Of a stretch of DNA of 64,000 nucleotides, positions 7,846 through 43,166 are shown piece by piece; position 1 is the first letter of the stretch; the number at the start of each line of letters is the position of its first letter. Source of the DNA: Shewanella oneidensis MR-1 (lineage in GTDB: Bacteria > Pseudomonadota > Gammaproteobacteria > Enterobacterales > Shewanellaceae); the NCBI RefSeq assembly GCF_000146165.2, contig NC_004347.2, positions 1,550,001-1,614,000 of the forward strand, read 5' to 3'. Below the pieces are notes generated by a model. It was not told the origin of the DNA, did not search any database, and was given only the letters and a program-made list of their open reading frames with translations. The position numbers and the translations under genes were made by a program.

Positions 7846-7889
7846 TTGTCATCTGGCTGACATAAATCTGTCTTCAAGCTGTTATTTTG
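7846..7889 (+). promoter_or_regulatory. four tandem 11-bp repeats resembling PhoB boxes, upstream of malQ
   Basis: Consecutive 11-mers TTGTCATCTGG, CTGACATAAAT, CTGTCTTCAAG and CTGTTATTTTG start at 7846, 7857, 7868 and 7879 with exact 11-bp phasing. The PhoB box of enterics is two 11-bp units of the type CTGTCATAAAT, and the middle pair here (CTGACATAAATCTGTC) is close to that. The block ends 61 bp before the malQ start, a normal activator distance. Phosphate-starvation control of glycogen genes is inferred. Confidence 0.55.
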
Positions 7890-7950
7890 GGCTGGCATGG
7901 TTACTGCCTATCTTAGGCTATGGATGAGCGGTTGCGGGAGCGACAAAAAT

Positions 7951-10260
7951 ATGGGGCTGGAGAAGTTGCTGTATTTGCGGGGCGTAGGAGCAGACTTTAC
8001 CGACTGCTTCGGCCAGTACATTCGCATTCCCGAAGCTGACAGGCAAGGGATTTTGACCTGTATGTTACAGGATACTAATGAGCCGCATAACGAGGCTGAG
8101 TTGTCAGCGGTGAATCGGCTCACACAGAGTGCTATCGCAGCCCAAGTTTATCAATTAGACGCACAGCATTGGACCCAAGTATTACCGGCATTTCATTGGT
8201 GTTATGTCGATGAACCATGGGTGTGCTTATATTTACCTCAATCTTACCGTGGCGATCTGCTGCTGACGTTTAAATGTGAGCAAGGTGAGGTAATTGTCTT
8301 TAATGTGCCGTTTTCAGGCTTAAAGCCGATTGGGGATTATCGTATTGAGGAATCCGAGTTAGCGCGACATGGCGATAGCCCATTTGCCGACGAATGCCAG
8401 TTTATTCAATATCGTCTCGATCTTTTAGCGCATGAGTTTGATTGCTGCGATGTCTCTGAGCAAGACAAGCTCAGCGATGTGTCCTGCCTTGGGCTGGGTT
8501 ACCACAAGCTCAGCGTCAGCTTGGGTGATACGACTTCTACTTTAGGGGATTGTACTTCAGGGATTCATCATGCCGAGCTAACAGCAAGGAAGGCGAATGA
8601 GTTCTATGGCCACTTTATGCTGGCACCGCGGACGGCTTATCAAGGCGTGATGAACAGCGTGGCGCAAAGAAAACGCCATAAACCTTGGGGCGTGAGTGTT
8701 CAGCTTTACAGTGTACGCAGTGATAACCAATGGGGGATCGGCGACTTTGGCGATCTAGAGCAACTCATCACCTTAGTTGCCGAATATGGCGCTGATTTTA
8801 TTCAACTCAATCCATTACATGCCTTAGATATTGCCGTGCCGGAACAGCCTAGTCCTTATAGTCCCTGTGATCGGCGCCGGCTTAATCCTCTGTATATTCA
8901 CTTGTCGAGCGTGCCTGAGTTTGAGCTCTTGGCTGAGGAATTTGCCGCCAATGAATGGCAAGAAGCCATTGCACTACTCAATACTGAAAATTGGCTCGAT
9001 TATCCCAAGGTGAGTGAGCTTAAGTACCGCGCCTTTGCCCGTTTATACACAGTGTTTTGCGAAAGCCATTTACAGCAACGTACGCTAAGGGCGCAGCGTT
9101 TTCATGTTTTTGTCAAACAAGAGGGTGAGTCGCTACGGGAGTTTGCTCAGGCCGAATACTTACGTAGCCCTAGCGCCATTGCGCAGGATGAAAGTTTTTA
9201 TCTTTATCTGCAGTTTGTGGCCGAAGAGCAACTGCAACTGTGCCAGCTTAAGGCAAAAGAAGCGGGCATGGGCATCGGGCTAATTCGCGATCTTGCAGTG
9301 GGTGCAGCCTTACAAGGTGTTGAGGTGCAAGCCAATTCACAACTGTTTTGTCTAAACGCTAGCATAGGCGCGCCGCCGGATCCCTTTGCGCCCCAAGGCC
9401 AAAATTGGGGCTTAACCCCCCTCGATCCTATTAAGTTAAAGCAAGATCGCTATCGCCATTTTATTGCGTTAATCCGCGCCAATATGACGTACTGTGGCGC
9501 ACTGCGAATTGACCATGTGATGGGGCTGTTACGGCTCTGGTGGTGGCCTCTGGATAAACGTCTTGGGCAGGGCGCCTATGTCTATTACCCCGTTGAAACT
9601 TTGCTGGCGATACTCTGTCTTGAAAGTCAGCGCGCCCGCTGTGTGGTGATTGGCGAAGACTTAGGCCTAGTCCCGCCTGACATTATTCACCGCCTGTATC
9701 ACGCCGGCGTTTACTCCAACGAACTGTTCTACTTCTGCAAGGATCATCAAGGCTTTAAGCCGCCGAGCCAATATAAGTTCCAAAGTTTGATGATGCTGGC
9801 AAACCACGATGTGCCCACCTTGGTCGCTTGGTGGACGGGCAGTGACTTGCACCTGAGGCGTCAACTCGACTTACTCACAACCGACGAGCAATTAGGTGAG
9901 GCATTGGCTGGACGTGAGCAGGAAAAACACCAGCTTGTGCACAGTTTAATCTCCCAAGGTTTATTGCCTGAGACAGATATTCAACAGATTGATCTTGAAG
10001 ATTTATTAACCGCGTGGATGGCATTGGGTGCCTCAGGCAATAGTGCGCTTTACAGCGTGCAATGGTGCGATCTGCTGGCTGATCGCCATGCGGTCAATAT
10101 CCCTGGCACTTGGCTCGAGTACCCCAATTGGCAGCGACGATTGCCGATCACGTTAAGGGATGCCGCGACCCAAAGCACTGTCGCACTGCGCTTGCAACGC
10201 ATTGCTGCTGCGAGACATTTGCCGGAAATCGCTGCACAAACAGATAACACCTTTGACTAA
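7951..10260 (+). CDS. malQ: 4-alpha-glucanotransferase (amylomaltase)
   Basis: A GH77 disproportionating enzyme that transfers glucan segments between maltodextrins, recycling oligosaccharides released during glycogen breakdown. It is 769 residues, somewhat longer than E. coli MalQ (694), with an N-terminal extension domain of about 230 residues before the catalytic part starting at [12 protein letters not shown]. Catalytic landmarks: [10 protein letters not shown] (nucleophile Asp), [11 protein letters not shown] (acid/base Glu) and [12 protein letters not shown] (third Asp). I chose ATG 7951 ([13 protein letters not shown]); in-frame ATGs at 7924 and 7897 are possible. It is the first gene of the operon, 13 bp before glgB. 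Confidence 0.92.
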
Positions 10261-31711: not shown

Positions 31712-33223
31712 ATGCGCACCGCTGCAGTCATCTCAATGCTGTTGTTTGGCGTGTTAACCAGTGTTAATGCCAGCGCCAAAGATAATGAGTTAGTGTTTGC
31801 TAGCGATTTTGAGGGTAACCGCTTATCCCAACCTTGGTCTTGGATCATGGGTTGCCAATTTGATGGGGCAGAGCCCCACAGTGGCGAGAGCGCGTTGCTA
31901 TGTGCCGAAGGCAATAGCAGTATTGTCAGTAAATACCCCGTGTCCGAAGCGGGGCTGTTGGAGTTTTGGGTGAAAACTCAAAATATCCAAACTCAATACC
32001 GGATTAATGTACTCACATCGCCCGTATTAAAACTGGATGCTCAGTGGCAGAATGTGGCGCTTATCGATGTTACTCCTGGCACAAATGAATATTTGGCCCA
32101 CAGGGTATCGATTGACGATCCGAGCCGCCAATATATTCGCCTCGATATCGAAGCCATTAATGGCCCTATCAGTTTGGATGACTTAACCCTAGATAAAATT
32201 CGCTTGGATATTGCCCTGCAAAAAAACGAGCAAAAAATCATTGGCGGCATTTTAGATAAGCTTAAAGAAGACAAAAACTACGAGGTTCAGGCTGAATCTT
32301 TTAGAACCCTAGGCAAAAACTACGCCGCCCAGCTCGAAAGCCAAAGACAGTACCTTGAGTATTCTAATGCGATTTATTCCAGTATCACCTTTGTATTGGC
32401 GACCTCTGAGCGCAACAAGATGTCTAACCCTTTGGGTTATAACACCTTTCGGTCGGTATTAACTGATGCTAAGCGGATTGCGTCGCCCATTCAGCAGGCG
32501 CGTTTAGGCTCTATGGTCAAACCCTTTGGTGATTTAGCCACAGCGACCCTAAATGTGGTGAGTGCTGGTGCCTATTCAGCCTTTGCTGAACCCTTTAAAT
32601 CCTTCCTTGCTGCCACCTTTGACCGCTCAAACTACGACAACAGCGATTTAAGTCGCAGTGATAAAAAGTTTGCCGAGGAAAACGGCCTTAAGATTTACCA
32701 GCAGGCCGAACGCTTTATGGCCGAAATCGAGAAAGAGCTGCAACAAGTAACGGCTCTCGATAATGATTTAGTCAGTATGCAGAAGAACTTAGACAATTTC
32801 CGTAAGGATTTGGACAAGCATCTGCGCAGCTACCTGCAACATGCCAGCATTGCCCGCACACCCGAAAATTACAGCAAGGTGATGAGCAAAGATGAGCAGA
32901 CACGCTCGGAAATAATGGCCGATGTGAATACCAATATCAGCGCCAAAGCAGAAGCCTTACTTGCCTCTAATAGTAATGCTGAGCTGGTGCAATACATGAT
33001 TAAAACGACTGAAAAAATGGATGAGTTTCAGGAGTTTAAAGAGCGTTTTAATCAAATCACCTCAGCGATGTTAACCTTTTACGACCGCTTTGAACGCTCG
33101 ATTGCCGCCGAGCAAAATCCCTTTACCGACCCAAGTGATAGGGCGGTATGGGAGCAACATGCTCAAAGTGCACGCAATTATATTCGTCAATCGAAGGAAG
33201 CCTTTACTAAAGCCTTTATGTAG
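31712..33223 (+). CDS. exported protein of unknown function, 503 aa
   Basis: I do not recognise the family. A signal peptide (MRTAAVISMLLFGVLTSVNASA, cut before KDNE) precedes an N-terminal region of ~25-160 with beta-rich, jelly-roll-like character (FASDFEGNRLSQPWSW, GLLEFWVKTQ, ISLDDLTLDKI), which recalls carbohydrate-binding or family-specific lectin folds. From ~170 to the end it is almost all helix, with long heptad-like stretches (EIEKELQQVTALDNDLVSMQ, NLDNFRKDLDKHLRSYL) suggesting coiled coils. GAGG is 5 bases before the ATG. A strong terminator follows. The gene borders the cassette island but its base composition looks native. Confidence 0.7.
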   Translation: MRTAAVISMLLFGVLTSVNASAKDNELVFASDFEGNRLSQPWSWIMGCQFDGAEPHSGESALLCAEGNSSIVSKYPVSEAGLLEFWVKTQNIQTQYRINVLTSPVLKLDAQWQNVALIDVTPGTNEYLAHRVSIDDPSRQYIRLDIEAINGPISLDDLTLDKIRLDIALQKNEQKIIGGILDKLKEDKNYEVQAESFRTLGKNYAAQLESQRQYLEYSNAIYSSITFVLATSERNKMSNPLGYNTFRSVLTDAKRIASPIQQARLGSMVKPFGDLATATLNVVSAGAYSAFAEPFKSFLAATFDRSNYDNSDLSRSDKKFAEENGLKIYQQAERFMAEIEKELQQVTALDNDLVSMQKNLDNFRKDLDKHLRSYLQHASIARTPENYSKVMSKDEQTRSEIMADVNTNISAKAEALLASNSNAELVQYMIKTTEKMDEFQEFKERFNQITSAMLTFYDRFERSIAAEQNPFTDPSDRAVWEQHAQSARNYIRQSKEAFTKAFM

Positions 33224-33262
33224 CGACTTGTTATAGAAAGGTTTACTGGGCTTGTTCATCAC

Positions 33263-33296
33263 AATGGCAGCGAAGTTTTTTCGCTGCCATTTTTAA
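33263..33296 (+). terminator. terminator of the exported-protein gene
   Basis: ATGGCAGCGAA and TTCGCTGCCAT flank a short T-rich loop, with TTTTTAAT following. It marks the left limit of core sequence before the cassette island. Confidence 0.88.
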
Positions 33297-33334
33297 TATG
33301 CGCAATATTACCAAAGCGATCGTTTAATAAGCCA

Positions 33335-33392
33335 TTTTAATCTGAGCGTGTTGTAGGCAAACCGAAAGTACATTATGTTGTTGATTTAGAAT
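33335..33392 (+). repeat. 58-bp imperfect direct repeat, copy A
   Basis: It aligns without gaps to 35828-35885 with roughly 46 of 58 identical bases; the 3' two thirds are best conserved (CATTATGTTGTTGAT shared exactly). It lies just upstream of the first cassette gene. The origin is unknown. Confidence 0.75.
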
Positions 33393-33431
33393 AGCGAGTT
33401 GTTTGGTTTTATTAGTGATGGAGTCGTTGAC

Positions 33432-33797
33432 ATGGAGTTTCAGGCAATCCCAATTATGCGGATTTTTGATGAAGACAAAGCCAAAGAGTTTTATCTTGGC
33501 TTTCTTGGCATGGAGTTAGATTGGGAACATCGTTTTGAAGAGGGTTACCCCATTTATATGCAAGTTTCGCTTGGCGATTTTGTTTTACACCTAAGTGAAC
33601 ATTCCGGTGACTGCACGCCTGGCAGTAAGGTTTTTGTTAATGTCAGCAACCTAGATAAGCTTTTTACACAAATTACTGCAATACCATACAAATATAATAA
33701 GCCAAGCATTGAAGAGGCAACTTGGGGAGCAAGGTGTTTCACTGTGACAGATCCATTTTCAAACAAGATATTGTTTAATGAATCATCAGAGACATAA
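33432..33797 (+). CDS. VOC-family (glyoxalase/bleomycin-resistance fold) protein, cassette gene
   Basis: A 121-residue single vicinal-oxygen-chelate domain: AIPIMRIFDEDKAKEFYLGF begins the first beta-alpha-beta unit, FEEGYPIYMQVSLGDFVLHLSEH holds a His/Glu-rich strand, and FTVTDPFSNKILFNE is the typical VOC C-terminal strand with a likely Glu ligand. This is the type of protein often annotated as bleomycin-resistance-like and often found in integron cassettes; actual resistance is not shown. ATG 33432 has GGAG 8 bases upstream. An attC-like site begins at its stop codon, which makes it the first recognisable cassette gene. Confidence 0.82.
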   Translation: MEFQAIPIMRIFDEDKAKEFYLGFLGMELDWEHRFEEGYPIYMQVSLGDFVLHLSEHSGDCTPGSKVFVNVSNLDKLFTQITAIPYKYNKPSIEEATWGARCFTVTDPFSNKILFNESSET

Positions 33798-33882
33798 CAA
33801 AAATATGTTATTTCCAGCAAACAGTGCTGGCTGTGACGTCAAACCGCCGCGTAACTTTTCGCGTTCAATCTGGGCGTTAATG
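33792..33882 (+). other. attC-like site 1 (degenerate)
   Basis: A right core GTTAATG (33876-33882) directly precedes the next gene, and the left core ACATAAC overlaps the stop of the VOC gene. The inner arms pair less well than in the other sites, and the left part also forms its own hairpin (ATAACA with TGTTAT). This is the weakest attC of the six. Confidence 0.5.
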
Positions 33883-33884
33883 AT

Positions 33885-34394
33885 ATGAATATCGAACGCA
33901 CATTTTTCTATTACGAAAAAATTAGAAAACAACAAGCTAAAATGATCGCATTTAATATGCTATTTTTGCCCGTTATCCTCTGGCTTATTTTGATATTGAT
34001 TCCAAAAAATAATCCTTTTTATAACCAATTTTTGTTTTACGTAAAATATATTGCTGTGACTTCTGAGCTTGTAATGTTGTCGCTAGCAGCATGGTTGCTT
34101 ACTCATCCTGCGAAATTTTATATCAAGCTTACAAACTCCGAGTTCAGCTCATTTCATCCGACTTTTAAAGAGTGCACGTTCAGCGTAAATCCACAAGACA
34201 TTATTGAAATTAAGCAAAGCACAGATATAGGTGCAGACGCTAGCCTCATTTCTGTGAAAATTAATAATGGTTCATCAGTTTTATTGAGTCCTAACTATCC
34301 ATATAAGCGAAGTGAACTATACGATGCATTGCGATTAGTTAATCCAAATATAAAAACGCCCAAGAACACTTGGTTGTTCCCATATAAAAAGTAA
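33885..34394 (+). CDS. small membrane protein with C-terminal beta domain, cassette gene
   Basis: A 169-residue protein of unknown function. Two membrane helices (MIAFNMLFLPVILWLILILI at ~20-39 and YIAVTSELVMLSLAAWLL at ~54-71) are followed by a short cytoplasmic domain of alternating strands (KFYIKLTNSEF, CTFSVNPQDIIEIKQ, ASLISVKINNGSSVLL) and a final helix, resembling a PH-like/bPH fold. The ATG is 3 bp after the attC core with no clear ribosome site, as is common in cassettes. It is more AT-rich than core genes. The architecture is the same as that of the IS3-split cassette gene at 38693-40401. Confidence 0.65.
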   Translation: MNIERTFFYYEKIRKQQAKMIAFNMLFLPVILWLILILIPKNNPFYNQFLFYVKYIAVTSELVMLSLAAWLLTHPAKFYIKLTNSEFSSFHPTFKECTFSVNPQDIIEIKQSTDIGADASLISVKINNGSSVLLSPNYPYKRSELYDALRLVNPNIKTPKNTWLFPYKK

Positions 34395-34509
34395 AAAATC
34401 AATTTTTGACAGGCTTATCTTAAAAATGGGATGTCATGTCCTGCAACTCACTGTAATCCTGCTTATCTAAACCAATCACTGCCCATTTGTTCTATTGGGT
34501 GGATTAGCA

Positions 34510-35760
34510 CGTCTTAAATACACCATTTTTAAGGCAAAACTGGATAAGGCAAAACTGGACATATATGGACGTTCCCGGTGAGTCAAGACAATACTCTGCT
34601 CACCGAAAAGGCAAAACTGGACACCCATCTTTAATAGCGCTGCGGTTAACCTCCGACTATGCTTTGGTTAAGCATTAAACAAGGAGGTTTGTATGCCGCG
34701 CCCTCGCAGAACCCAGATAAGTCTTGAAGACACGCCTTATTACCATTGTTGTAGCCGCGTTGTTCGCCGTGCATTTTTATGTGGCGATGATGCCTATTCT
34801 GGTAAAAACTATGACCATCGTCGTGGTTGGGTAGAATCGCTACTGTTTGAACTTGAAGCGGTTTTTGCTATTGATGTGGCAGCGTTTGCGGTGATGTCGA
34901 ATCATCTGCATCTGGTGCTGCGAGTCGATATCGACAGTGCCAATCGTTGGACTGACCGCGAAGTACTTGAGCAGTGGCATAAGTTGTTTAAAGGCGATGA
35001 ATTAACGCAAAAATTCGCCAAAGGTGAGTTAGTTGAAGCCTATGAGGTCAGCAGATTAAAGCATTCCATCGCTCTTTATCGCAGTCGTTTGTGTGATATT
35101 TCATGGTTTATGCGCTGTTTGAATGAACCTATCGCAAGGCAAGCAAATCAAGAAGATAACTGCACAGGTCGCTTCTGGGAGGGGCGGTTCAAATCCCAAG
35201 CCCTACTCGATGACGCCGCTGTATTAGCTTGTATGACTTACGTCGATTTGAATCCCATTAGAGCGCAACTCGCTGATACACCAAAACAATCCGACCATAC
35301 CAGCATTCAGCTACGTATTCGGGCCGCATTAAAAGGCGAGCAGCCGAGCAATCTACTGCCTTTTATTGGTAACGAGTGCGACAACCAACCCAATGGCATT
35401 GCGTGTGCCTTAACGGATTACCTTCAATTAGTGGATGATACTGGCCGAATTATTCGCAACGATAAACGTGGATACATCAGTGAAAATAGCGCCAAAATAC
35501 TGACAAGATTAAATATCCCCCATGACAATTGGCTCAAGCTGACCACCGAGTTTGGCAAGCTATTTCATGGTCCGGTGGGTACACTGCAAGAACTCACTGA
35601 TTACTGCGAGCATCTAGAAAAGCGACGACGGCACTTTGCGTCAAGCTGCCAGCACTTGCGCTGCAACTGACAACGACTTATATAACTTCGAAAATAACCC
35701 TTGCTGAGTATCTCCTAAGAACTGGGATGATTTACCTCGTCTGAAATACACCATTTTTTA
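34510..35760 (+). mobile_element. TnpA-REP type unit bounded by 23-bp direct repeats
   Basis: CGTCTTAAATACACCATTTTT (34510) recurs as CGTCTGAAATACACCATTTTT (35738) on either side of the Y1-type transposase gene. Between the left repeat and the gene are three copies of GGCAAAACTGGA (34533, 34548, 34610) and a hairpin (CGGTGAG 34576 with CTCACCG 34599). These may be the cis sequences recognised by the enzyme. The element limits are inferred. Confidence 0.5.
34693..35670 (+). CDS. REP-associated tyrosine transposase-like protein (Y1, HUH)
   Basis: A single-strand HUH nuclease/transposase of the IS200/IS605-related TnpA-REP group, 325 residues, longer than IS200 TnpA because of a C-terminal extension. 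The HUH motif is HLHLVLR (His71, His73), and MTYVDLNPIRAQ carries the probable catalytic Tyr183; GRFWEGRFKSQALLDD is the usual preceding block. A perfect AAGGAGG lies 8 bases before the ATG. These proteins act on palindromic repeats rather than forming classical ISs; here a hairpin and triplicated 12-mers lie directly upstream. It appears intact. Confidence 0.85.
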   Translation: MPRPRRTQISLEDTPYYHCCSRVVRRAFLCGDDAYSGKNYDHRRGWVESLLFELEAVFAIDVAAFAVMSNHLHLVLRVDIDSANRWTDREVLEQWHKLFKGDELTQKFAKGELVEAYEVSRLKHSIALYRSRLCDISWFMRCLNEPIARQANQEDNCTGRFWEGRFKSQALLDDAAVLACMTYVDLNPIRAQLADTPKQSDHTSIQLRIRAALKGEQPSNLLPFIGNECDNQPNGIACALTDYLQLVDDTGRIIRNDKRGYISENSAKILTRLNIPHDNWLKLTTEFGKLFHGPVGTLQELTDYCEHLEKRRRHFASSCQHLRCN

Positions 35761-35827
35761 ATGAATTAGTGCTATTTTTTGCCTCAGAAGCTGCCCCTAC
35801 GGCTTTTGATGACTCTCATTTAAGCAA

Positions 35828-35885
35828 TTTTAACTCGTACAAGTTGTAGACAAATCGAAAGTGCATTATGTTGTTGATCTAAAAT
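35828..35885 (+). repeat. 58-bp imperfect direct repeat, copy B
   Basis: Partner of 33335-33392. It ends immediately before the IS91-family element. The two copies enclose the VOC gene, the membrane-protein cassette and the TnpA-REP unit. Confidence 0.75.
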
Positions 35886-37320
35886 GGATGGCCGGATTTT
35901 TCTCCGGAATTAGGTCATCAAGGCTGTGACTTGCTAGCAAGTCTTGGGGGAATGCCATGGCAACCTCCTACCATTTAAGCGATATCCTTCAGCAGCACTT
36001 AGCCCACTATCAACAGCAGCATAAACTGACCGAGCAGCAAGCTTTGGTCTGCCAGCATATTCAACAGTGTCGCACGCAAACCTTAGGGATGCAGCACTGG
36101 CGTTGTGATACTTGCCAGTATGAGCAGCAGGTGTGTTGCTCCTGTGGTGACCGGCATTGCCCTCGTTGTCAGGGAAGGCAGACGCAAGCGTGGATTGCTA
36201 CGCAGCAGGCGCAAGTCTTGCCTTGCCGCTATTTCCATTTGGTTTTTACCTTACCCCACGAGTTGAACATCTTGGCGCACTATGCTGCCAAGCCGCTCTA
36301 TAGCGCGTTGTTTGAATCGGTGTGGCAGACGCTGGCGCAGTTTGGCATGAAACGGAAACACCTTCAGGGTCAATTGGGTTGCACTATGGTGCTGCACACG
36401 TGGGGGCAGACCTTGAGTCAACATATCCACTTGCATTGCTTAATCCCTGGTGGGGTGGTGACGTCAGCGGGAGATTGGCATGGCGTGAAAACGGATTATC
36501 TGTTTCCGGTTAAAGCCTTGTCCACCGTGTATCGGGCTAAGCTATTACGGGCACTGCGACAACATGAGCTGGCTATTCCAGCGGCTGAAACCTTAATGGC
36601 AAAGCCGTGGTGTGTTTACAGCAAAGCGTGTCTAAGCCGCGCCGAAACCGTGGTGGAATACCTTGGGCGTTATACCCGTAAAGGCATGTTGCATGAATCA
36701 AGAATTGCAGAAGTGACCGCAGACCATGTCCGTTTTAACTACAAAGACTATCGTGACGGTCAGCAGCATAAGCAAATGTGGCTAAGCTGTGATGAGTTTA
36801 TCCGCCGTTATTTACTGCATGTGTTGCCCAAAGGGCTGATGCGAGTGAGACATTTTGGTTTTCTTGCCAATGCTTGCCGCCGCAAAAAGCTGGCGCTCAT
36901 CCTGCGGCAACTACGTAAGCCGCAGGTGGTATTGGCGAGTCCTTTGGTTAAGAAGGACTGTTTGTGGTCATGTCCGCAATGCCAGTTAGGTCATTTGCAG
37001 TTTATTGGGTTGATAAGACCGCAGTCGGTAGTGATGATAAACAGCCAAGGTCAGCCAGTACGTATGTCAGGATAACCACGCCCTCAAGACGTAGCGTAAC
37101 CGACAGCGAAAAGCAGCCAGCCTTATGGGGTTAAGCCGATGAGGGGATAGGGTATGAGTGTCAGCCTGAATCTGGGGCCAAAATGCTGTCAACCAAGGTC
37201 AACAATCAGTCAGAAGTGAGTGTAAAAGAATGAGAAAGCAAAAACGATATCAAGTGATTACCCTCCAAACTGTATAAAAAACCGCTACCGCAAAAAAACA
37301 AATTCCTATAGCATCATTTA
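35886..37320 (+). mobile_element. IS91-family insertion sequence (ends approximate)
   Basis: It carries one transposase gene and about 245 bp of 3' non-coding DNA. The left end contains a small hairpin (CCGGA/TCCGG at ~35892-35907). IS91 elements lack inverted repeats and target duplications, so the right end (somewhere between ~37200 and 37345) cannot be fixed by eye. Confidence 0.55.
35957..37075 (+). CDS. IS91-family rolling-circle transposase
   Basis: A 372-residue HUH transposase for rolling-circle transposition. The N-terminal zinc-binding region has Cys pairs WRCDTCQYEQQVCCSCGDRH then CPRC (50-71). The HUH motif is HLHCLIPGG (His158, His160), and the catalytic tyrosines are in EYLGRYTRKG (Tyr235, Tyr239). 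GGGGGA precedes the ATG at good spacing. Length and motifs are complete, so it may be active. It sits between the 58-bp repeat B and an attC site, consistent with insertion into the cassette array. Confidence 0.88.
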   Translation: MATSYHLSDILQQHLAHYQQQHKLTEQQALVCQHIQQCRTQTLGMQHWRCDTCQYEQQVCCSCGDRHCPRCQGRQTQAWIATQQAQVLPCRYFHLVFTLPHELNILAHYAAKPLYSALFESVWQTLAQFGMKRKHLQGQLGCTMVLHTWGQTLSQHIHLHCLIPGGVVTSAGDWHGVKTDYLFPVKALSTVYRAKLLRALRQHELAIPAAETLMAKPWCVYSKACLSRAETVVEYLGRYTRKGMLHESRIAEVTADHVRFNYKDYRDGQQHKQMWLSCDEFIRRYLLHVLPKGLMRVRHFGFLANACRRKKLALILRQLRKPQVVLASPLVKKDCLWSCPQCQLGHLQFIGLIRPQSVVMINSQGQPVRMSG

Positions 37321-37351
37321 TACCAATTGACATGGATGTGGCAGCGGCCAA
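37076..37351 (+). other. non-coding 3' part of the IS91 element and its junction with the cassette array
   Basis: No gene is credible. Most of this is probably the right end of the IS91-family element, which normally ends with a short replication terminus, then cassette DNA resumes before attC2. Confidence 0.45.
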
Positions 37352-37411
37352 GTCCAACAAGCGATTTATGCCCTGCAAACAGCGCTGCGCATAAATACTA
37401 AGACGTTAGGT
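37352..37411 (+). other. attC site 2, 60 bp
   Basis: The left core GTCCAAC and right core GTTAGGT fit the RYYYAAC/GTTRRRY consensus. Inside, ATTTATG and CATAAAT are exact complements and CTGC/GCTGCGC-type sequence forms the centre. It lies 6 bp before the next cassette gene. It is probably the attC of the 33885-34394 cassette, separated from it by the inserted TnpA-REP and IS91 units. Confidence 0.82.
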
Positions 37412-37417
37412 GTTTTA

Positions 37418-38065
37418 ATGAAGCAATCTGAGTCTGACAAACTTTTGAATAAGATATTAAAAGAAAAATCAAATCGTTTTGGTTGGAAATTCAGCCGCGG
37501 CTTCGTCTTCAAGAAAGATAAGGCTTTATTTTTCACGATCTTAATTACGGGCCAGCCGAAGACAAAAAGGCTATCTTGGTCTATGAGCTTTAAGCACTAT
37601 GATTTTGATGAAGTATTTTGGGATGTCGTTAAGCTGCCGGAGAACAAAAAACAACCGCTTAGTTTCCGGGCTTGTGGAGCTTGGGTGGCACCCAGTATGG
37701 AAATTCAAAGTGGCAATGTAACACTGAACAAATGGGAAGAAGAAACCATATCAGAAGAAGTAACTAATATTTTTGAGCTGCTTTCTCCCATAAGTGTTGA
37801 AGTGGCAAATACCAGTACCACTTACAAAAGCAACCTTCTAGTCTTGGAGAATTTCTTTTCGCAGTTAATAAGTAAACACCCAAATGCAATCCGAACTGTA
37901 TGGGTCGAGAAACTCTTAACTTGCTTACTCGAATCCCAGCTTGATGAAGCTAAAAAAATAGCTAATGCAAGAATAGAATCAGGTGATTCAGGTGGTTTCA
38001 ATTATGCGGGCAGCTCGTTTTATCAATTGGCAAGCGAATACATTGATGCAGCCGAAAAAACCTAA
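37418..38065 (+). CDS. hypothetical protein, 215 aa, cassette gene
   Basis: A soluble protein of unknown function, starting MKQSESDKLLNKILKEKSNRFGW. The N-terminal half looks alpha+beta (RGFVFKKDKALFFTILITG, LSWSMSFKHYDFDEVFW) and the C-terminal ~70 residues are helical. No catalytic motif or signal peptide is apparent. Similar WKFSRGFVFKK-type proteins are, as far as I recall, known from integron cassettes, with no assigned role. It begins 6 bp after attC2, and its stop codon lies inside attC3, the standard cassette arrangement. No strong ribosome site. Confidence 0.7.
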   Translation: MKQSESDKLLNKILKEKSNRFGWKFSRGFVFKKDKALFFTILITGQPKTKRLSWSMSFKHYDFDEVFWDVVKLPENKKQPLSFRACGAWVAPSMEIQSGNVTLNKWEEETISEEVTNIFELLSPISVEVANTSTTYKSNLLVLENFFSQLISKHPNAIRTVWVEKLLTCLLESQLDEAKKIANARIESGDSGGFNYAGSSFYQLASEYIDAAEKT

Positions 38066-38119
38066 CAATTCGTTCAAGTGGACCGCGCTAAGCGCGGCCA
38101 ATTAACTCCAGCGTTAGTT
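38060..38119 (+). other. attC site 3, 60 bp
   Basis: The cores ACCTAAC and GTTAGTT match the consensus. L-arms TTCAAG and the TTAACTCC region are followed inward by a strong CCGCGC-TAA-GCGCGG hairpin. The preceding gene's TAA is inside the left core. This is the most typical attC in the array. Confidence 0.9.
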
Positions 38120-38142
38120 GTCGTAGAGATGGAGCGTTGTAC

Positions 38143-38607
38143 ATGTTTAAGAAGTTTATTTTTTCGTTAGTTATGATTGCGTCTCTTACTGGTTGTAGTG
38201 CAACAGGCCCCAAATTTACTCAAACGGAAGCGCCCGAGGTAAATAAAGCTAAAGTGTACTTTTATCGTCCTTGGGCCATGCTAGATGGCGCCGCAGCTCC
38301 TACGGTACAGATAAATGGGGTAGATAGTTTTGAAATCAGTAATGGCGGCTTCCATGTATTGGACCTTAATCCAGGTAACACTATAATCGCAGTCAAAGAG
38401 GGCGGCATTATGTCCAACTGGCGTGCCGGATCATTGCAAATCTCCTTCGATGTTCAAGCCAATAACATTTATTTTGTTCGCCTAACTGCCGAGCTTGCTA
38501 ACGCAGCTTATCTTGGAGGCGTGGCCAGTATTTCTGGTAATTATTCGCTTGGGTTAGTTAACCCAGAAACTGCAGCTAAAGAATTGAGTGAAACCAAGAA
38601 AAACTAA
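38143..38607 (+). CDS. DUF2846-like lipoprotein, cassette gene
   Basis: A predicted lipoprotein of 154 residues: signal MFKKFIFSLVMIASLTGC with a classical lipobox LTGC (Cys18). The mature domain starting KAKVYFYRPWAMLDGAAAPTV matches the DUF2846 pattern, a small beta-rich periplasmic domain of unknown role common in gammaproteobacteria. GGAG lies 8 bases upstream of ATG 38143; an in-frame TTG 6 bases earlier is less likely. Its stop lies in attC4. Exported proteins are common among cassette products. Confidence 0.8.
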   Translation: MFKKFIFSLVMIASLTGCSATGPKFTQTEAPEVNKAKVYFYRPWAMLDGAAAPTVQINGVDSFEISNGGFHVLDLNPGNTIIAVKEGGIMSNWRAGSLQISFDVQANNIYFVRLTAELANAAYLGGVASISGNYSLGLVNPETAAKELSETKKN

Positions 38608-38676
38608 CAAGGCAAGTCAGCATCGCACCTTCGGTGCTGGACTCGCTAACGCTCGCAGTTGCTTGCGGCGTTATGC
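38602..38676 (+). other. attC site 4, 75 bp
   Basis: The left core AACTAAC overlaps the stop of the lipoprotein gene; the right core is GTTATGC. GCAAG near the left end pairs with CTTGC near the right end, and an inner stem (CAGCATCGCACC region with GGTGCTGG) forms a second arm. Confidence 0.82.
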
Positions 38677-38692
38677 AAAGAAGAGGAAACTA

Positions 38693-38917
38693 ATGACCTA
38701 TAAAGTTCTATGGAAAGAATTGTGGCTGAGCCTATCAAAATACATGGCTATCGCAATCACCATCCCAGTTCTAATTGTTTTTGCAATTCGTTATGTAAAG
38801 TATGGCTTTGACTTTGGTGCAGCATTTCCTCATTTGAACCTGATCAACTCCTTAAAAATAGGTTCTGGAATTGTCTTATTTTGTATTGTCTTCGCATGGC
38901 TTATTGTTCTGGTCTAA
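38693..38917 (+). pseudogene. 5' part of a cassette gene split by the IS3 element
   Basis: ATG 38693 follows AGAGGAAAC and an attC core. It encodes 74 residues with two membrane helices (YMAIAITIPVLIVFAIRYV and IGSGIVLFCIVFAWLIV); the stop codon is supplied by the IS end at 38915. The 3' part is at 40135-40401. Removing 38910-40138 (the IS and one target repeat) joins the frames exactly: 217 + 263 = 480 bases, 159 residues plus stop. The rebuilt protein has two helices then a small beta domain, like the cassette product of 33885-34394. Confidence 0.72.
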
Positions 38918-38971
38918 TCCCATCGGACACTTAATTTTGAGACAGTATGGTCAATAAATTAAGAGGTCTAT

Positions 38972-39262
38972 ATGAGTCTGAAAAAATCACATAAGAGTTA
39001 TCCGCAGGCATTTAAAGATGAAGCCGTCTTGATGGTGCTGGAGCAAGGTTATAGCGTTGCCGATGCGGCAAAGTCTCTTGGAGTTAGCACGAGCCTGCTT
39101 TACAACTGGAAGGAAAAACACGAAGCCCTGCAACAAGGCATCACCTTAGAAGAGTCTGAGCGTGATGAGTTGAAGCGATTGCGTAGAGAAAACAAAGAAT
39201 TACGCATGGAGAAAGAAATTCTAAAAAAGGCAAGCGCCTTCTTTGCGAGAGAAATGAAGTAA
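38972..39262 (+). CDS. IS3-family transposase OrfA
   Basis: A 96-residue DNA-binding subunit: an N-terminal helix-turn-helix (YPQAFKDEAVLMVLEQGYSV, AAKSLGVSTSLLYNWKEKHE) and a C-terminal leucine-zipper-like stretch (LKRLRRENKELRMEKEILKKA). Near its end a slippery A AAA AAG (39223-39229) lies in the correct phase (CTA AAA AAG) for -1 programmed frameshifting, which would join it to OrfB to make the active OrfAB transposase. Confidence 0.92.
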   Translation: MSLKKSHKSYPQAFKDEAVLMVLEQGYSVADAAKSLGVSTSLLYNWKEKHEALQQGITLEESERDELKRLRRENKELRMEKEILKKASAFFAREMK

Positions 39263-40131
39263 GATTTCGTTTCATCAAACTGCAATCTCACCTGTTTCCC
39301 ATAACACTGTTATGTCGAGTAATGAGTGTCAGTAAGTCAGGCTATTACGATTGGCATAAACGCCCTGCAAACGTGATAAGCGTTGAAACACTGAAGCTTT
39401 ATCGCCTTGTTCGACAGCTATTTAAGCAAAGTCGAGGCAGCTTAGGGAATCGTGAAATGGTGAAGAAATTGCGCAAGGAAGGCTACCAGGTTGGTCGCTA
39501 TCTCGTTCGTAAAATTATGCACCGCCTTCGACTCAAAGCAACCCAGCGATGTGCTTACAAGGTGACGACACAGCGAAAACACTCAGATGCAGTGGCTGAT
39601 AACCTGTTAAACATGAACTTTAATCCAGTATCGGCTAATCAGGTCTGGGCGGGTGACGTGACCTATTTAAAGACGGGTGAAGGCTGGATGTACTTAGCTG
39701 TGGTGATGGATTTATATTCACGCCGGATTGTGGGATGGCGCATAGACAAACGCATGACCACAGATTTGATATCCAAGGCATTAATAAAAGCCTACAACCT
39801 GCGACAACCAGCGCGAGGGCTGGTATTTCACAGTGACCGAGGCTCGCAATATACCAGTAAACAATTCGGTAGGCTGCTATCGAGCTATGGTATCCGAGCC
39901 AGCATGGGTGATGTGGGTGCGTGTTGGGATAATGCCGTTGTTGAGCGATTCTTTGGTAGCTTGAAACACGATTGGATTTTTAAAGTTGCTCAACCAACAA
40001 GGGAGTTTATGAAGCAAGATGTGACGGCTTACATCAAATATTACAACTTGGAGCGACTTCATTCTGCTAATAACGATCTGTCACCTGTAGAGTTTGAGAA
40101 TTCTCAAGTAAAAGTGTCCAGTTTGGGTTGA
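39223..40131 (+). CDS. IS3-family transposase OrfB (read by -1 frameshift)
   Basis: A DDE integrase-core subunit. The -1 frame is open from the slippery site at 39223 to 40131; an internal ATG at 39322 (MSVSKSGYYDWHKRP) would give 269 residues by itself. The catalytic triad is intact: Asp in WAGDVTYLKTGEGWMYLAV, Asp in FHSDRGSQYTS and Glu in WDNAVVERFFGSLKHD. An HTH_21-type region precedes the core. With OrfA intact, the element may still be able to transpose. Confidence 0.92.
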   Translation, partial: KKGKRLLCERNEVRFRFIKLQSHLFPITLLCRVMSVSKSGYYDWHKRPANVISVETLKLYRLVRQLFKQSRGSLGNREMVKKLRKEGYQVGRYLVRKIMHRLRLKATQRCAYKVTTQRKHSDAVADNLLNMNFNPVSANQVWAGDVTYLKTGEGWMYLAVVMDLYSRRIVGWRIDKRMTTDLISKALIKAYNLRQPARGLVFHSDRGSQYTSKQFGRLLSSYGIRASMGDVGACWDNAVVERFFGSLKHDWIFKVAQPTREFMKQDVTAYIKYYNLERLHSANNDLSPVEFENSQVKVSSLG

Positions 40132-40134
40132 CCA

Positions 40135-40401
40135 GTACACACAGCCTTGTGGGTTGGAATGGCCAAAATCACTATTAGCAATGGCACAATTCAGGGGAGA
40201 AACTATTGGGGCTTTAAAAATAGCTTCCCATTAGCCGAATCAGTTTCATCATATAACTTTAGCAATAATGGAATTAATGCCATTGTTCTTGTTAGTAGAA
40301 ACAGTGGGAAAATTTACATCTCAGTTCATACTGAGAAATTGAATGAGCTACTTGAATTAATTGAACCATTTATACTTAAAAACAATGAAACAAATGCATA
40401 A
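40135..40401 (+). pseudogene. 3' part of the cassette gene split by IS3
   Basis: It continues the frame of 38693-38909 after removal of the IS. It encodes the end of a membrane segment (HTALWVGMAK) and a beta domain (ITISNGTIQGRNYWGFKNSF, INAIVLVSRNSGKIYISVHT) with a final helix ELLELIEPF. An ATG at 40159 could restart translation as an 80-residue soluble fragment. The stop codon lies in attC5, as expected for a cassette gene. Confidence 0.72.
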
Positions 40402-40527
40402 CAAAGTGCTGCAACTCGCGCACTGCGTGCGCTGGACAGTTTGTAAGTTGCGGCTTTGTGGTTTTGCTGCGCAAAAGTATTCCACAAAACCACAACTTAC
40501 AAACTGCCGTTGAGCACGGCGTTAGCC
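40396..40527 (+). other. attC site 5, 132 bp, long VCR-like type
   Basis: Cores GCATAAC and GTTAGCC. GTGCT near the left pairs with AGCAC near the right. The centre is a very long imperfect palindrome whose arms CAGTTTGTAAGTTG and CAACTTACAAACTG are exact 14-bp complements. Long attC sites of this kind are typical of chromosomal integrons of marine Vibrio and Shewanella. Confidence 0.88.
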
Positions 40528-40797
40528 GTTAATCGGGTTTTATAGTTTTTGGCAGGTTTAGCAGCCAACACACCAGGGAGGTGGCTTTGTTCGGGCAGTT
40601 CGTTGCTCGGGTAAAGTGCAAACGGAAATTGCGTTCTTCGTTTCCCTTCTGGTAGTTTGGTGTTCACCAATTATTTACAGGTTCTGCTCAGCGCTTTATG
40701 GCAGCCAAGCTGCAAAAGTCAGCTGTTTGCGGGGTAAGTTTTAAATTTGCACATGCGGCGTTGTTGGTGTTTTCGCGTTGCCCTTATCCGGGCTCTC
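40528..40797 (+). other. apparently ORF-less gene cassette
   Basis: The 270 bp between attC5 and attC6 has no convincing reading frame on either strand. The only plus-strand frame of note (40698-40880) runs into attC6 and has no ribosome site. The segment begins GGTTTTATAGTTTTTGGCAG and resembles cassettes without genes that I associate with Vibrio integrons. It could carry a promoter or a small RNA. Confidence 0.6.
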
Positions 40798-40882
40798 GGC
40801 TAACAAATCGCGGCACTTGCGGCCTTCGGCCGCAGCGACGTCAACTGCGATGCAGTTGCCGCGCGTGCGCTCAGCGTTAATC
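40798..40882 (+). other. attC site 6, 85 bp, end of array
   Basis: Cores GGCTAAC and GTTAATC. CGCGGCA and TGCCGCG are exact complements, with inner stems TGCGGCC/GGCCGCA and CAACTGC/GCAGTTG. After this site the sequence returns to intergenic DNA before lldG. Confidence 0.87.
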
Positions 40883-40994
40883 CATAGAAATTTTTATCCG
40901 AAATTCACCTGATACAACCGATGACCTGACACGCATTTGTCCATTAGCTTTTTACGTACATATAGCAAATGGATAGTTAAAATTGGCATTGGGG

Positions 40995-41066
40995 CTCCAG
41001 TGACCGTCGGCGACATGGAGGTCGCCGTCGAGCCTATAAGGACATATTCACGGCGAGTCACTGGAG
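40995..41066. repeat. 72-bp palindromic element with nested hairpin
   Basis: The outer arms CTCCAGTGAC (40995-41004) and GTCACTGGAG (41057-41066) are exact complements. Inside, GGCGAC and GTCGCC (41009-41026) form a second hairpin over 6 bases. It lies between the array end and the lldG terminator. It looks like a dispersed intergenic palindrome of Shewanella. Confidence 0.65.
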
Positions 41067-41151
41067 AAACAATGACAATAAACTTGTTGAGCAGATAAAA
41101 TGACTATTTAGCTTTTGAACCAAAGCGTTTTATCTACACATTCATCCCAAC

Positions 41152-41200: not shown

Positions 41201-41770
41201 TTAAACCAGATACACATTTAAGCTGCAGGCACCGTGGGCGCCGACGACGAGGGCTTGCTCGATATCGGCGGTTTTTGAAGGGCCTGCGATAAACACGCCA
41301 AACTCGCCTGCATCTAAGGTCACTTCTTTCGCGGCCTGATGCATATTTGGCACAATTTTATGGATGGGTAAGGCTAAGATCAGGTTTTCACAGATAAAAG
41401 GTGTCACTCTGTGGCCGAGATTCTTATTGTTTACCCAAATGGCACCATTTTCGGCAACACCTACATCCCCAGGAATAACCGCATAATCGATATCCCTGAG
41501 CTCGTGAGCCGTTGGTGGCACATCACGGTTTGCCGTGACGCCCTCAACGAGGGAGATAACTTGTAAGCCTTGGGCAATCAGCTCATCCACTTTGGCTTGC
41601 AGTGCCGCAAGGCCGCCTTCGCGGTGCAGTGTGCCCGCCACGGTTTTAAGATTGGTTTCAAACTGGCCAACCAGATCTTCAACCCTCGGGGCGACATCGA
41701 TGCTTGGCATAGGATGGTTTGTTAAAGCCGACAGTTTGAGCGCATTGAGAATTTCGTGCTTACTAGACAT
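41201..41770 (-). CDS. lldG: L-lactate dehydrogenase complex subunit LldG (LUD domain)
   Basis: The LUD-domain subunit of the three-part LldEFG L-lactate oxidation complex, known from S. oneidensis and as LutC in Bacillus. It is 189 residues. The LUD core is visible at VSLVEGVTANRDVPP, DYAVIPGDVGVAENGAIWV and FGVFIAGPSKTADIEQALVVGAHGA. The start at 41770 (MSSKHEIL) has AGGAG upstream and lies 1 bp after the lldF stop. It is the last gene of lldEFG. No redox cofactor motif is seen, as usual for this subunit. Confidence 0.93.
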   Translation of the reverse strand: MSSKHEILNALKLSALTNHPMPSIDVAPRVEDLVGQFETNLKTVAGTLHREGGLAALQAKVDELIAQGLQVISLVEGVTANRDVPPTAHELRDIDYAVIPGDVGVAENGAIWVNNKNLGHRVTPFICENLILALPIHKIVPNMHQAAKEVTLDAGEFGVFIAGPSKTADIEQALVVGAHGACSLNVYLV

Positions 41771-41771
41771 C

Positions 41772-43166
41772 TTATAGGCTCCTGTGTTTCTTAAACCAAG
41801 CTTCGAAGCTGGAGTTGGGGGCGACGGGCAGCTCACGGTATTTACCCCAAGCTCCGCTAAAGGGTTTGAGCAGACTGCCGGGCAGAATGCGCAGTGCGGT
41901 GCGGGCCGCGCCCATAGAGCAATTGAGCAGAGTCGTGCTAGCCATAAATTTACCCACTAATGGCATATAAGCATTTTTGCCATAAGGGAGTTTTCCTGCT
42001 TCGGCCTTAAGGCGTCGATGGTGGTGAATAATCTTATCGAGCGGCACCTTAGTCGGGCAGACATAGGTGCAGCTGCCACACAGAGTACAAGCCCAAGCGA
42101 TGGAGTTGGTATTATCATGGGTGGCACCCACGGCAATCCCAATCGGACCGGGAATGGTGTAGTTATAGCTGTAACCACCGGAGCGGCGATATACCGGACA
42201 AGTGTTAAGGCAGCCACCACAGCGAATACATTTTAATGATTCGGCAAGGATTTTATCCTTCATCATCTCGGTGCGGCCATTATCGACGATAATCACGTGC
42301 ATCTCACCATCGACCTGTGGGCCACGGTAGAAGGCGCTGTAGGTCGTCACCGGTTGGCCGGTCGCATTGCGCGCGAGGGTACGCAGCAATACCGCTGCGC
42401 TGTCGATATCGGGGACAACTTTGTCGATCCCCATCGAATGCAACTGTAATTTGGGCAGGTTAGCGCCCATATCGGCGTTACCTTCGTTGGTACAAACGAC
42501 CACGGCGCCCTTATCGGCAATCGCCATGTTTACCCCTGTCATGGCGGCATCGGCGCTGAGGAATTGCTCACGCAAATGGGCACGGGCGGCACGGGTTAAA
42601 TACAAGGGATCGGACTCGCCAGCCTTAGTGCCTAATTTGTCATGAAACAGATCGCCCACTTCCTCTTTTTTCATGTGGATAGCGGGGACCACAATGTGCG
42701 ATGGCGGCATTTTCGCGAGCTGAATAATCCGTTCACCTAAGTCGGTATCAATCACTTCAATCCCACGTTGCTCCAAGTAAGGGTTGAGGTGACATTCTTC
42801 GGTGAGCATGGATTTAGATTTAACTAATTTTTTGACCTTATGGCTGGCTAAGATCTCGTGCACGATGCGGTTGTGCTCGGCGCCATCTTTTGCCCAATGC
42901 ACTTTGATGCCGTTGGCAAGGCAATTTTGCTCAAAGGTTTCAAGGTATTGTGCAAGATTGGTTAAGGTATGCAGTTTGATTTCAGAGCCCAACTGACGCA
43001 GTTGCTCCCACTCGGGTAAGCTGCCAGCGGCGCGATCGCGTTTTTCCCTCAATAGCCAAAGGGCTTTCGAGTGCCAGTCAACTCGGGTTTCATCGCGGCA
43101 GAAAATATCGGCCTTATAGGCGTGAACCTGTGAACCCATTGCCTCGTGATTATGCTGATATGCCAT
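41772..43166 (-). CDS. lldF: L-lactate dehydrogenase iron-sulfur subunit LldF
   Basis: A 464-residue iron-sulfur protein of the LldEFG complex. An N-terminal LUD-like domain (~65-290, with NEGNADMGANLPKLQLHSM) is followed by two ferredoxin-type clusters: CIRCGGCLNTCP (~309-320) and CTLCGSCTYVCP (~357-368), each with the CxxCxxCxxxCP spacing of 4Fe-4S sites. A C-terminal DUF3390-like tail follows. It is expected to pass electrons from lactate oxidation to the quinone pool at the inner membrane. It lies between lldE (10 bp) and lldG (1 bp). Confidence 0.94.
   Translation of the reverse strand: MAYQHNHEAMGSQVHAYKADIFCRDETRVDWHSKALWLLREKRDRAAGSLPEWEQLRQLGSEIKLHTLTNLAQYLETFEQNCLANGIKVHWAKDGAEHNRIVHEILASHKVKKLVKSKSMLTEECHLNPYLEQRGIEVIDTDLGERIIQLAKMPPSHIVVPAIHMKKEEVGDLFHDKLGTKAGESDPLYLTRAARAHLREQFLSADAAMTGVNMAIADKGAVVVCTNEGNADMGANLPKLQLHSMGIDKVVPDIDSAAVLLRTLARNATGQPVTTYSAFYRGPQVDGEMHVIIVDNGRTEMMKDKILAESLKCIRCGGCLNTCPVYRRSGGYSYNYTIPGPIGIAVGATHDNTNSIAWACTLCGSCTYVCPTKVPLDKIIHHHRRLKAEAGKLPYGKNAYMPLVGKFMASTTLLNCSMGAARTALRILPGSLLKPFSGAWGKYRELPVAPNSSFEAWFKKHRSL

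Follow-up and report, generated by a model that had tools for sequence, protein, structure and literature searches.

A cassette array without integrase in Shewanella oneidensis MR-1 is probably an eroded copy of a dispersed attI platform

Between a gene for a protein of 512 amino acids (aa) that ends at position 33223 and a 211-aa open reading frame (ORF) on the minus strand (41201-41836, presumably lldG), the genome of Shewanella oneidensis MR-1 carries an island in which small ORFs alternate with attC sites, the recombination sites of integron cassettes. The island occupies the lactate locus within the 64-kb stretch of DNA analysed here (hereafter the window; C1:1550001-1614000 of a genome of two contigs and 5,131,424 bases), and at its left edge synteny stops at 33222-33225 against three relatives and extends as far as 33293 against others. 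A preliminary description of the window had taken 33432-40882 for an array of six attC sites without an integrase, interrupted by three transposase units and forming a distinct island in its own right. We consider it probable, from the layout of the junctions, that the array is instead an eroded copy of an attI-bearing mini-integron that has no integrase gene, is dispersed through the genus, and would have been filled by an integron integrase (IntI) acting in trans.

The attC sites were assessed with a covariance model (R1) trained on 35 attC that were chosen by a core rule from intI-linked arrays of other Shewanella. The model replaced a simple attC scanner, which is blind to strand because attC is palindromic. 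Run over both strands of the window with filters off, R1 returned four significant attC, all on the plus strand and at exactly the starts previously claimed (40396, 38602, 38060 and 40798), the next match having an E-value of 1.5. Six equal attC are thus ruled out. Site 33792 fails (10.3 bits over a 22-nt match, E 2.1), and site 37352-37411 reaches an E-value of 4.8, yet the limits of its match are exactly R'' and R'; although not a model-significant attC, it is a true boundary, the 3' end of a recurrent cassette, and is called LU below. The single orientation of the sites, the ORFs ending inside the left core of the next attC and the three transposase units all proved as described (Table 1). 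The array proper is therefore 37406-40876, bounded by LU on the left, by attC between cassettes, and on the right by a conserved distal end, RU, which starts at the core of the last attC; the left part, 33226-35900, with its one attC-like site below significance, has candidate cassette status only.

With four attC in one cluster at E<=5.1e-4 by an independently trained model, the array fits the working definition of a cluster of attC sites lacking integrase (CALIN), namely at least two attC and no intI nearby, if not in its six-site version. The window contains no match to the integron-integrase model TIGR02249 at E<=10 and none to the resident IntI by tblastn at 1e-2, nor do an intI and an attI adjoin the array as in a complete integron. 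Elsewhere in the genome, where the preliminary description had suggested looking, TIGR02249 has a single match above its cut-off, a stop-free gene at C1:2134131-2135069 (396 bits against 265), some 543 kb from the array.

Table 1. Features of the island (positions in the window; bits and E-values from R1 unless another model is named)
Feature	Position	Strand	Details
Left accessory stretch	33226..34442	+	repeat 33328-33392, glyoxalase-family ORF 33432-33797, 169-aa ORF 33885-34394
REP-associated-tyrosine-transposase (RAYT)-like gene	34693..35670	+	NF047646 39.5 bits, below cut-off 80
5'-truncated LU cassette with IS91 transposase 35957-37075	35901..37405	+	NF033538 397 bits
LU, divergent attC-like site, core G37405^TTA, putative docking edge for next cassette	37352..37411	+	9.0 bits
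Cassette 1: ORF 37418-38065 (215 aa), attC 38060-38119	37406..38113	+	25.5 bits, E 1.4e-4
Cassette 2: DUF2846 protein 38143-38607 (Pfam), attC 38602-38676	38114..38670	+	30.6 bits, E 5.6e-6
Cassette 3: ORF pieces 38693-38917 and 40147-40401 flanking IS3 element (ORFs 38972-40131)	38671..40521	+
Cassette 3 attC	40396-40527	+	37.1 bits, E 8.7e-8
Cassette 4: attC 40798-40882; clear ORF absent except ones overlapping attC	40522..40876	+	23.4 bits, E 5.1e-4
RU, conserved distal end of the platform	40877..40943	+
Arm repeat	40976..41079		reverse complement on the left side of attI in G074 and of several platforms

The same locus was compared in seven of eight relatives, all except G006 (genomes and loci are cited by working numbers, G and L). 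Four of the seven carry an attI, or an attI/LU hybrid, at the lactate locus, and in three of these attC follow: G074 has attI and one attC, G036 a hybrid, four attC (one of them at RU) and RU, and G042 a hybrid with three attC, while G039 has attI with no attC at E<=0.5. The other three are G015 with RU only, G082 with one weak attC (E 0.18), and G002, an island-free relative of the kind the preliminary description had hoped for, whose flanking genes, the same as in the window, stand about 2.9 kb apart and enclose none of the features sought. No cassette DNA is common to the window and the lactate locus of the seven relatives, and the sole IntI-like match at that locus among them is a 26%-identical recombinase in G036. 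The region is not a stand-alone island, for attI-type sites occupy this place in relatives, the right end and the first cassette end recur at many loci, and the genome has an open intI, the one some 543 kb away. The attI query described below has no match in the window among the matches listed, and the array thus lacks an attI on its left; its membership among the proposed mini-integrons would be by descent, given the attI-type site at the same locus in four of seven relatives.

Copies of attI without intI are numerous in the genus. Alignment of the regions upstream of intI at 16 loci placed the end of attI at AAATG^TTA, and a 211-nt attI taken from an intI-less place of the source genome (2323k) was used to search 97 Shewanella genomes. 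Matches occurred in 70 of them, up to 16 per genome where several may be pieces of one copy; as the best 8-9 places per genome were followed in the genus-wide LU and attI searches, copy numbers are lower bounds. At least eight separate attI places were found in each of G015, G024, G039, G045, G051, G069, G074 and G093. An intI at E<=1e-60 is present in 57 of the 97 genomes (0-2 matches each), and eleven genomes, several of them drafts, have at least eight attI matches and no intI at that threshold (G002, G030, G039, G041, G045, G046, G064, G069, G074, G081 and G093).

The surroundings of attI were sampled to at most 1.5 kb on each side, using the top locus in each of the 30 genomes that scored best. 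By tblastn with the resident IntI, a piece of IntI lies upstream in one locus (L252); the two further matches are on the downstream side and are consistent with the recombinase of the IS91 cassette described below. R1 returned 30 attC matches at E<=0.1, of which 28 lie downstream on the attI strand, two upstream on the same strand and none on the other (binomial 3.5e-15 for p=0.25, matches taken as independent), the downstream sites being spread over 20 loci. In 20 of the 30 loci a left-end motif, TGCC(C/T)CA, precedes the core by 369-409 nt (by 453 in one case), against 71 of 1500 random windows. Four attI copies, L098, L249, L251 and L253, are hybrids that end in the final 32 nt of LU, which suggests that the two kinds of core may be exchangeable.

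These distributions bear on the ordinary explanation of such arrays, that each is the local remnant of a complete integron which lost its intI separately, with no dispersed platform. Degradation of integrons has been proposed as the origin of CALINs (PMC9024848), two intI-less loci keep an attI with sequence resembling the intI promoter, and the 3' flank of intI survives in one class of LU copies, the B-type. Five genomes without intI (G039, G045, G069, G074 and G093), on the other hand, have at least eight separate attI places each, intI-less copies have one left-end motif in common, and a flank is shared among B-type copies from different loci; the ordinary explanation would therefore need an independent loss at each place, and we hold it to be unlikely. 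The retained flank, that of the MR-1 intI, lies left of LU in L020, L021, L041, L047 and the 1122k copy (alignments of 35-125 nt, scores 40-83 against shuffle maxima of 25-26), while the G072 and G013 intI flanks give weaker scores, one pair only equalling the shuffle maximum. Because this flank is kept, the B-type copies have the appearance of integrons from which an internal deletion removed intI and attI. The same origin was rejected for A-type copies, since neither L022 nor L043 scores higher than the shuffles and the match of L025 is confined to the arm.

LU itself is widespread. By blastn (E<=0.001), the stretch 37290-37412 is matched in 45 of the 97 Shewanella genomes, the source genome included. 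A sample of 197 genomes from the order gives 15 with a match, belonging to three of 79 genera, and Pseudoalteromonas plasmids match at 71-75% identity (one looked at). The source genome has 15 copies and two fragments among scored places, and in nearly all printed copies homology goes no further than the core GTTA. Across 42 copies, 95.4% of cells are paired in the LU structure, and six pairs, all in the attC-like hairpin, show changes on both sides; none of 500 shuffles reaches four of five measures, and 140 of 500 reach the fifth, further pair types. The site at 37352 thus has fitting R'' and R' cores and a covarying stem, with a weak R1 score. A reading of LU as a regulatory RNA was set aside, its position at cassette cores explaining the data better. 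Rfam at gathering thresholds gives zero matches in the window.

Like attI, LU has attC on its downstream side. Among 29 LU loci, 19 attC matches (E<0.05, a cut picked after viewing the list) comprise 18 downstream on the same strand, in 14 loci, and one upstream; among 20 loci followed to about 6 kb downstream, in a sample that overlaps the first in genomes, 15 of 16 matches at E<=0.1 lie downstream on the same strand, in 10 loci, and the remaining one is on the opposite strand. In 41 of 43 printed LU copies the core is followed within about 150 nt by the start of an ORF of 40 aa or more, a count made without a chance control, which together with the covarying hairpin had pointed to the regulatory RNA set aside above. 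At one pair of loci, L095 in the source genome and L096 in G074, the two genomes are collinear up to the LU core, then carry unrelated genes until synteny returns.

A different identity for LU would be that of the hairpin terminating an IS91-family element whose target is GTTA, its nearness to cassettes being target choice. LU does stand behind an IS91 transposase in five copies of the source genome, its homology does stop at GTTA, and at 2323k its core abuts a long ORF, presumably alpha-amylase-like, that is not a recognised cassette. Most LU copies, however, are without IS91, L054 and L063 have a similar 5' end and LU without it, and the left limit of the IS91 and LU unit is a cassette core, G^TTGAAC. 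Four places of the source genome carry the unit at a length of exactly 2377 bp from that core to LU, each end being a cassette core; at three of them it follows attI directly, at the fourth another G. In the one copy that was read it contains a 287-aa tyrosine recombinase as well as the IS91 transposase, and DNA identity extends this to the other copies. A version with 93.7% identity exists in G036, where the attI ahead of it is about 500 kb away from the intI of that genome, and the 5' end of the unit appears twice in the intI-linked array of G044, once directly behind an attC-like end. An IS91 terminus at 37352 was itself rejected, the supposed left end of the insertion sequence having aligned with attI upstream of intI and the limits being cassette cores, and we regard this explanation as quite improbable. 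Since the limits of the LU unit are cassette cores and it is placed behind attI, LU appears to be the attC-like end of a cassette, of which the window would hold a 5'-truncated form. An IS91-like element beside attC has been called a new cassette structure in Shewanella sp. Choline-02u (ISShvi3; PMC9229058); that structure was reported for one array, whereas the LU cassette has an exact length at four places and a close copy in another species.

The right end recurs likewise. In 16 of 20 RU loci an attC recognised by R1 (E<=1) ends at RU, the exceptions being L147, L155, L160 and L162, and RU also closes an intI-linked array in G072 (L181; attC judged by eye). Beyond RU lies the window's right arm. 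Several platforms are flanked by arms in inverted orientation, their left arms matching the reverse complement of this right arm (scores 45-146 against shuffle maxima of 25-31, and 21 for the same-strand control); similar arm pieces occur at other places in the genome, and the arms may for that reason be a separate repeat. By eye, the left end TGCCCCAAAGTGAGTTA resembles the RU end when the latter is reverse-complemented. A firm claim of short terminal inverted repeats was dropped, several RU copies continuing past that point with a similar direct repeat. That the cassettes are bordered by attI, LU or RU, the junctions falling at the core, and that attI and LU are placed non-randomly relative to attC (the downstream same-strand excess), leaves hardly credible, and already disfavoured, the idea that cassettes landed through IntI in trans at unrelated genomic attG-type sites with the shared repeats incidental, for all that papers citing Loot et al. 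2024 describe cassette insertion at non-classical genomic sites.

For a platform filled in trans, the preferred reading, the course of events may be put as follows. The platform would be a small unit that has an attI-type recombination site and no integrase gene, into which an integron integrase would insert cassettes successively at G^TTRRRY cores. In the window copy the attI side would have been lost, and the LU cassette with its IS91 transposase cut off by the RAYT-like gene and the adjoining repeat; four cassettes with canonical attC would then follow, with RU, the distal end of the platform, closing the array. The cassette junctions are compatible with IntI recombination at G^TTA, and from them we infer both the docking of cassettes and the dispersal of platforms, the cassettes having presumably been placed by an IntI from another locus or by one since lost. 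The integrase of S. oneidensis is reported to be active and tolerant of atypical attC (PMC3053210). That platforms spread as units would be in keeping with the common left-end motif and the inverted arms.

Several observations weigh on the other side. LU is a poor attC by R1, and no attC lies within 1.5 kb downstream of 15 of the 29 LU loci or of 10 of the 30 attI loci. RU follows within 4.2 kb on the same strand behind only six of 15 LU copies and one fragment in the source genome, and behind two of 20 LU loci in the wider sample. LU shows no association with intI presence (28 of 45 genomes with LU against 29 of 52 without, counted by hand). An empty platform, with attI or LU joined directly to RU, is absent among the matches listed, a query of attI joined to RU returning matches to either half with a junction overlap of at most about 17 nt; a target-site duplication of the platform was not shown. 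The attI query, coming from an intI-less copy, biases the search toward intI-less best matches, and some of the genomes are drafts.

The platforms share features with several known systems. With a chromosomal integron of the SonIntIA type they have in common an attI region, cassette cores and a distal end; that integron has an integrase and one copy, whereas the platforms have no integrase gene and occur in several to many copies per genome. With CALINs they share attC (at least two) in one orientation, small ORFs and a distant or missing intI, but CALINs are defined by attC alone, whereas arrays of the window's type have conserved recurring ends, attI or LU on the left and RU on the right. 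Integrons flanked by miniature inverted-repeat transposable elements, and integron mobilization units, are known from clinical bacteria; in both, inverted repeats surround integron parts, as the arms do here. Those are resistance integrons, whereas the Shewanella platforms are without integrase and no resistance gene was seen in the window. The attG sites, as papers citing Loot et al. 2024 describe them, likewise receive cassettes away from an integron, presumably by IntI in trans, and diverge from classical att sites, whereas the sites of the window's type are copies of attI or of one cassette end.

A broader proposal is advanced more tentatively, as a possibility that we find neither strong nor remote: a distributed integron, in which one integrase (or none now) would serve many mobile intI-less attI platforms that capture cassettes at many loci, some species keeping the docking network after the loss of intI. 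The usual picture is of one array beside one integrase, with CALINs as debris; if the proposal were true, attI platforms without intI would account for the origin of many CALINs and single cassettes and would put cassettes into many genomic contexts, and the action of IntI in trans would become testable in a laboratory bacterium that is harmless. A search by intI and attC alone would miss the platforms as such. CALINs are already reported in most Shewanella (PMC9229058). We found no report of attI platforms without integrase in the open-access literature searched.

The cargo behind LU was surveyed at ten LU-type cores of the source genome. Six of the first ORFs have a Pfam match (DUF6988, AbiJ_NTD4 with DUF7014, DUF2971, AbiTii, BLUF and DUF4062) and four have none, and PADLOC gave four clear matches (PDC-S52, PDC-S32, PDC-S31 and AbiTii) and one weak one. 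A detected attC follows only some of the ten, so not all are established as cassettes, and a role in defence is putative. Proteins matching phage-defence models are the first ORFs at C1:1984k, 3926k, 4532k and 3780k, and a gene for a BLUF blue-light sensor is the first ORF behind copy L166 (C1:3788k).

In the window, the protein of cassette 1 has 28 relatives at E<=0.001, the closest at 87% identity (metagenome) once an identical 160-aa entry is set aside, followed by Methylobacter at 76% and Deefgea at 69%, a pattern consistent with lateral spread. The attC at 38060, which we take to resemble that of aadA, is 86.4% identical over 59 nt to plasmid records in the four rows that cover it among the matches listed (2692 records match the query somewhere). 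The 269-aa ORF of the IS3 element in cassette 3 recurs unchanged, by eye, beside other cassette loci (L009 and L011). In L009 the recombinase of the LU cassette (7867-8730, minus strand) directly precedes the IS91 transposase and is XerA-like at 187 bits (cut-off 220), scoring 161.5 bits against the integron-integrase model (cut-off 265). The LU cassettes of L054 and L063 hold a possible small ORF ending ..KKSKFL, the DNA being kept, by eye, in LU copies where the frame is broken. The repeat at 33328-33392 and 35680-35900, up to about 220 bp long, has some 25 other matches in the genome, often clustered; it adjoins the RAYT-like gene, and the two cut the LU cassette at 35901.

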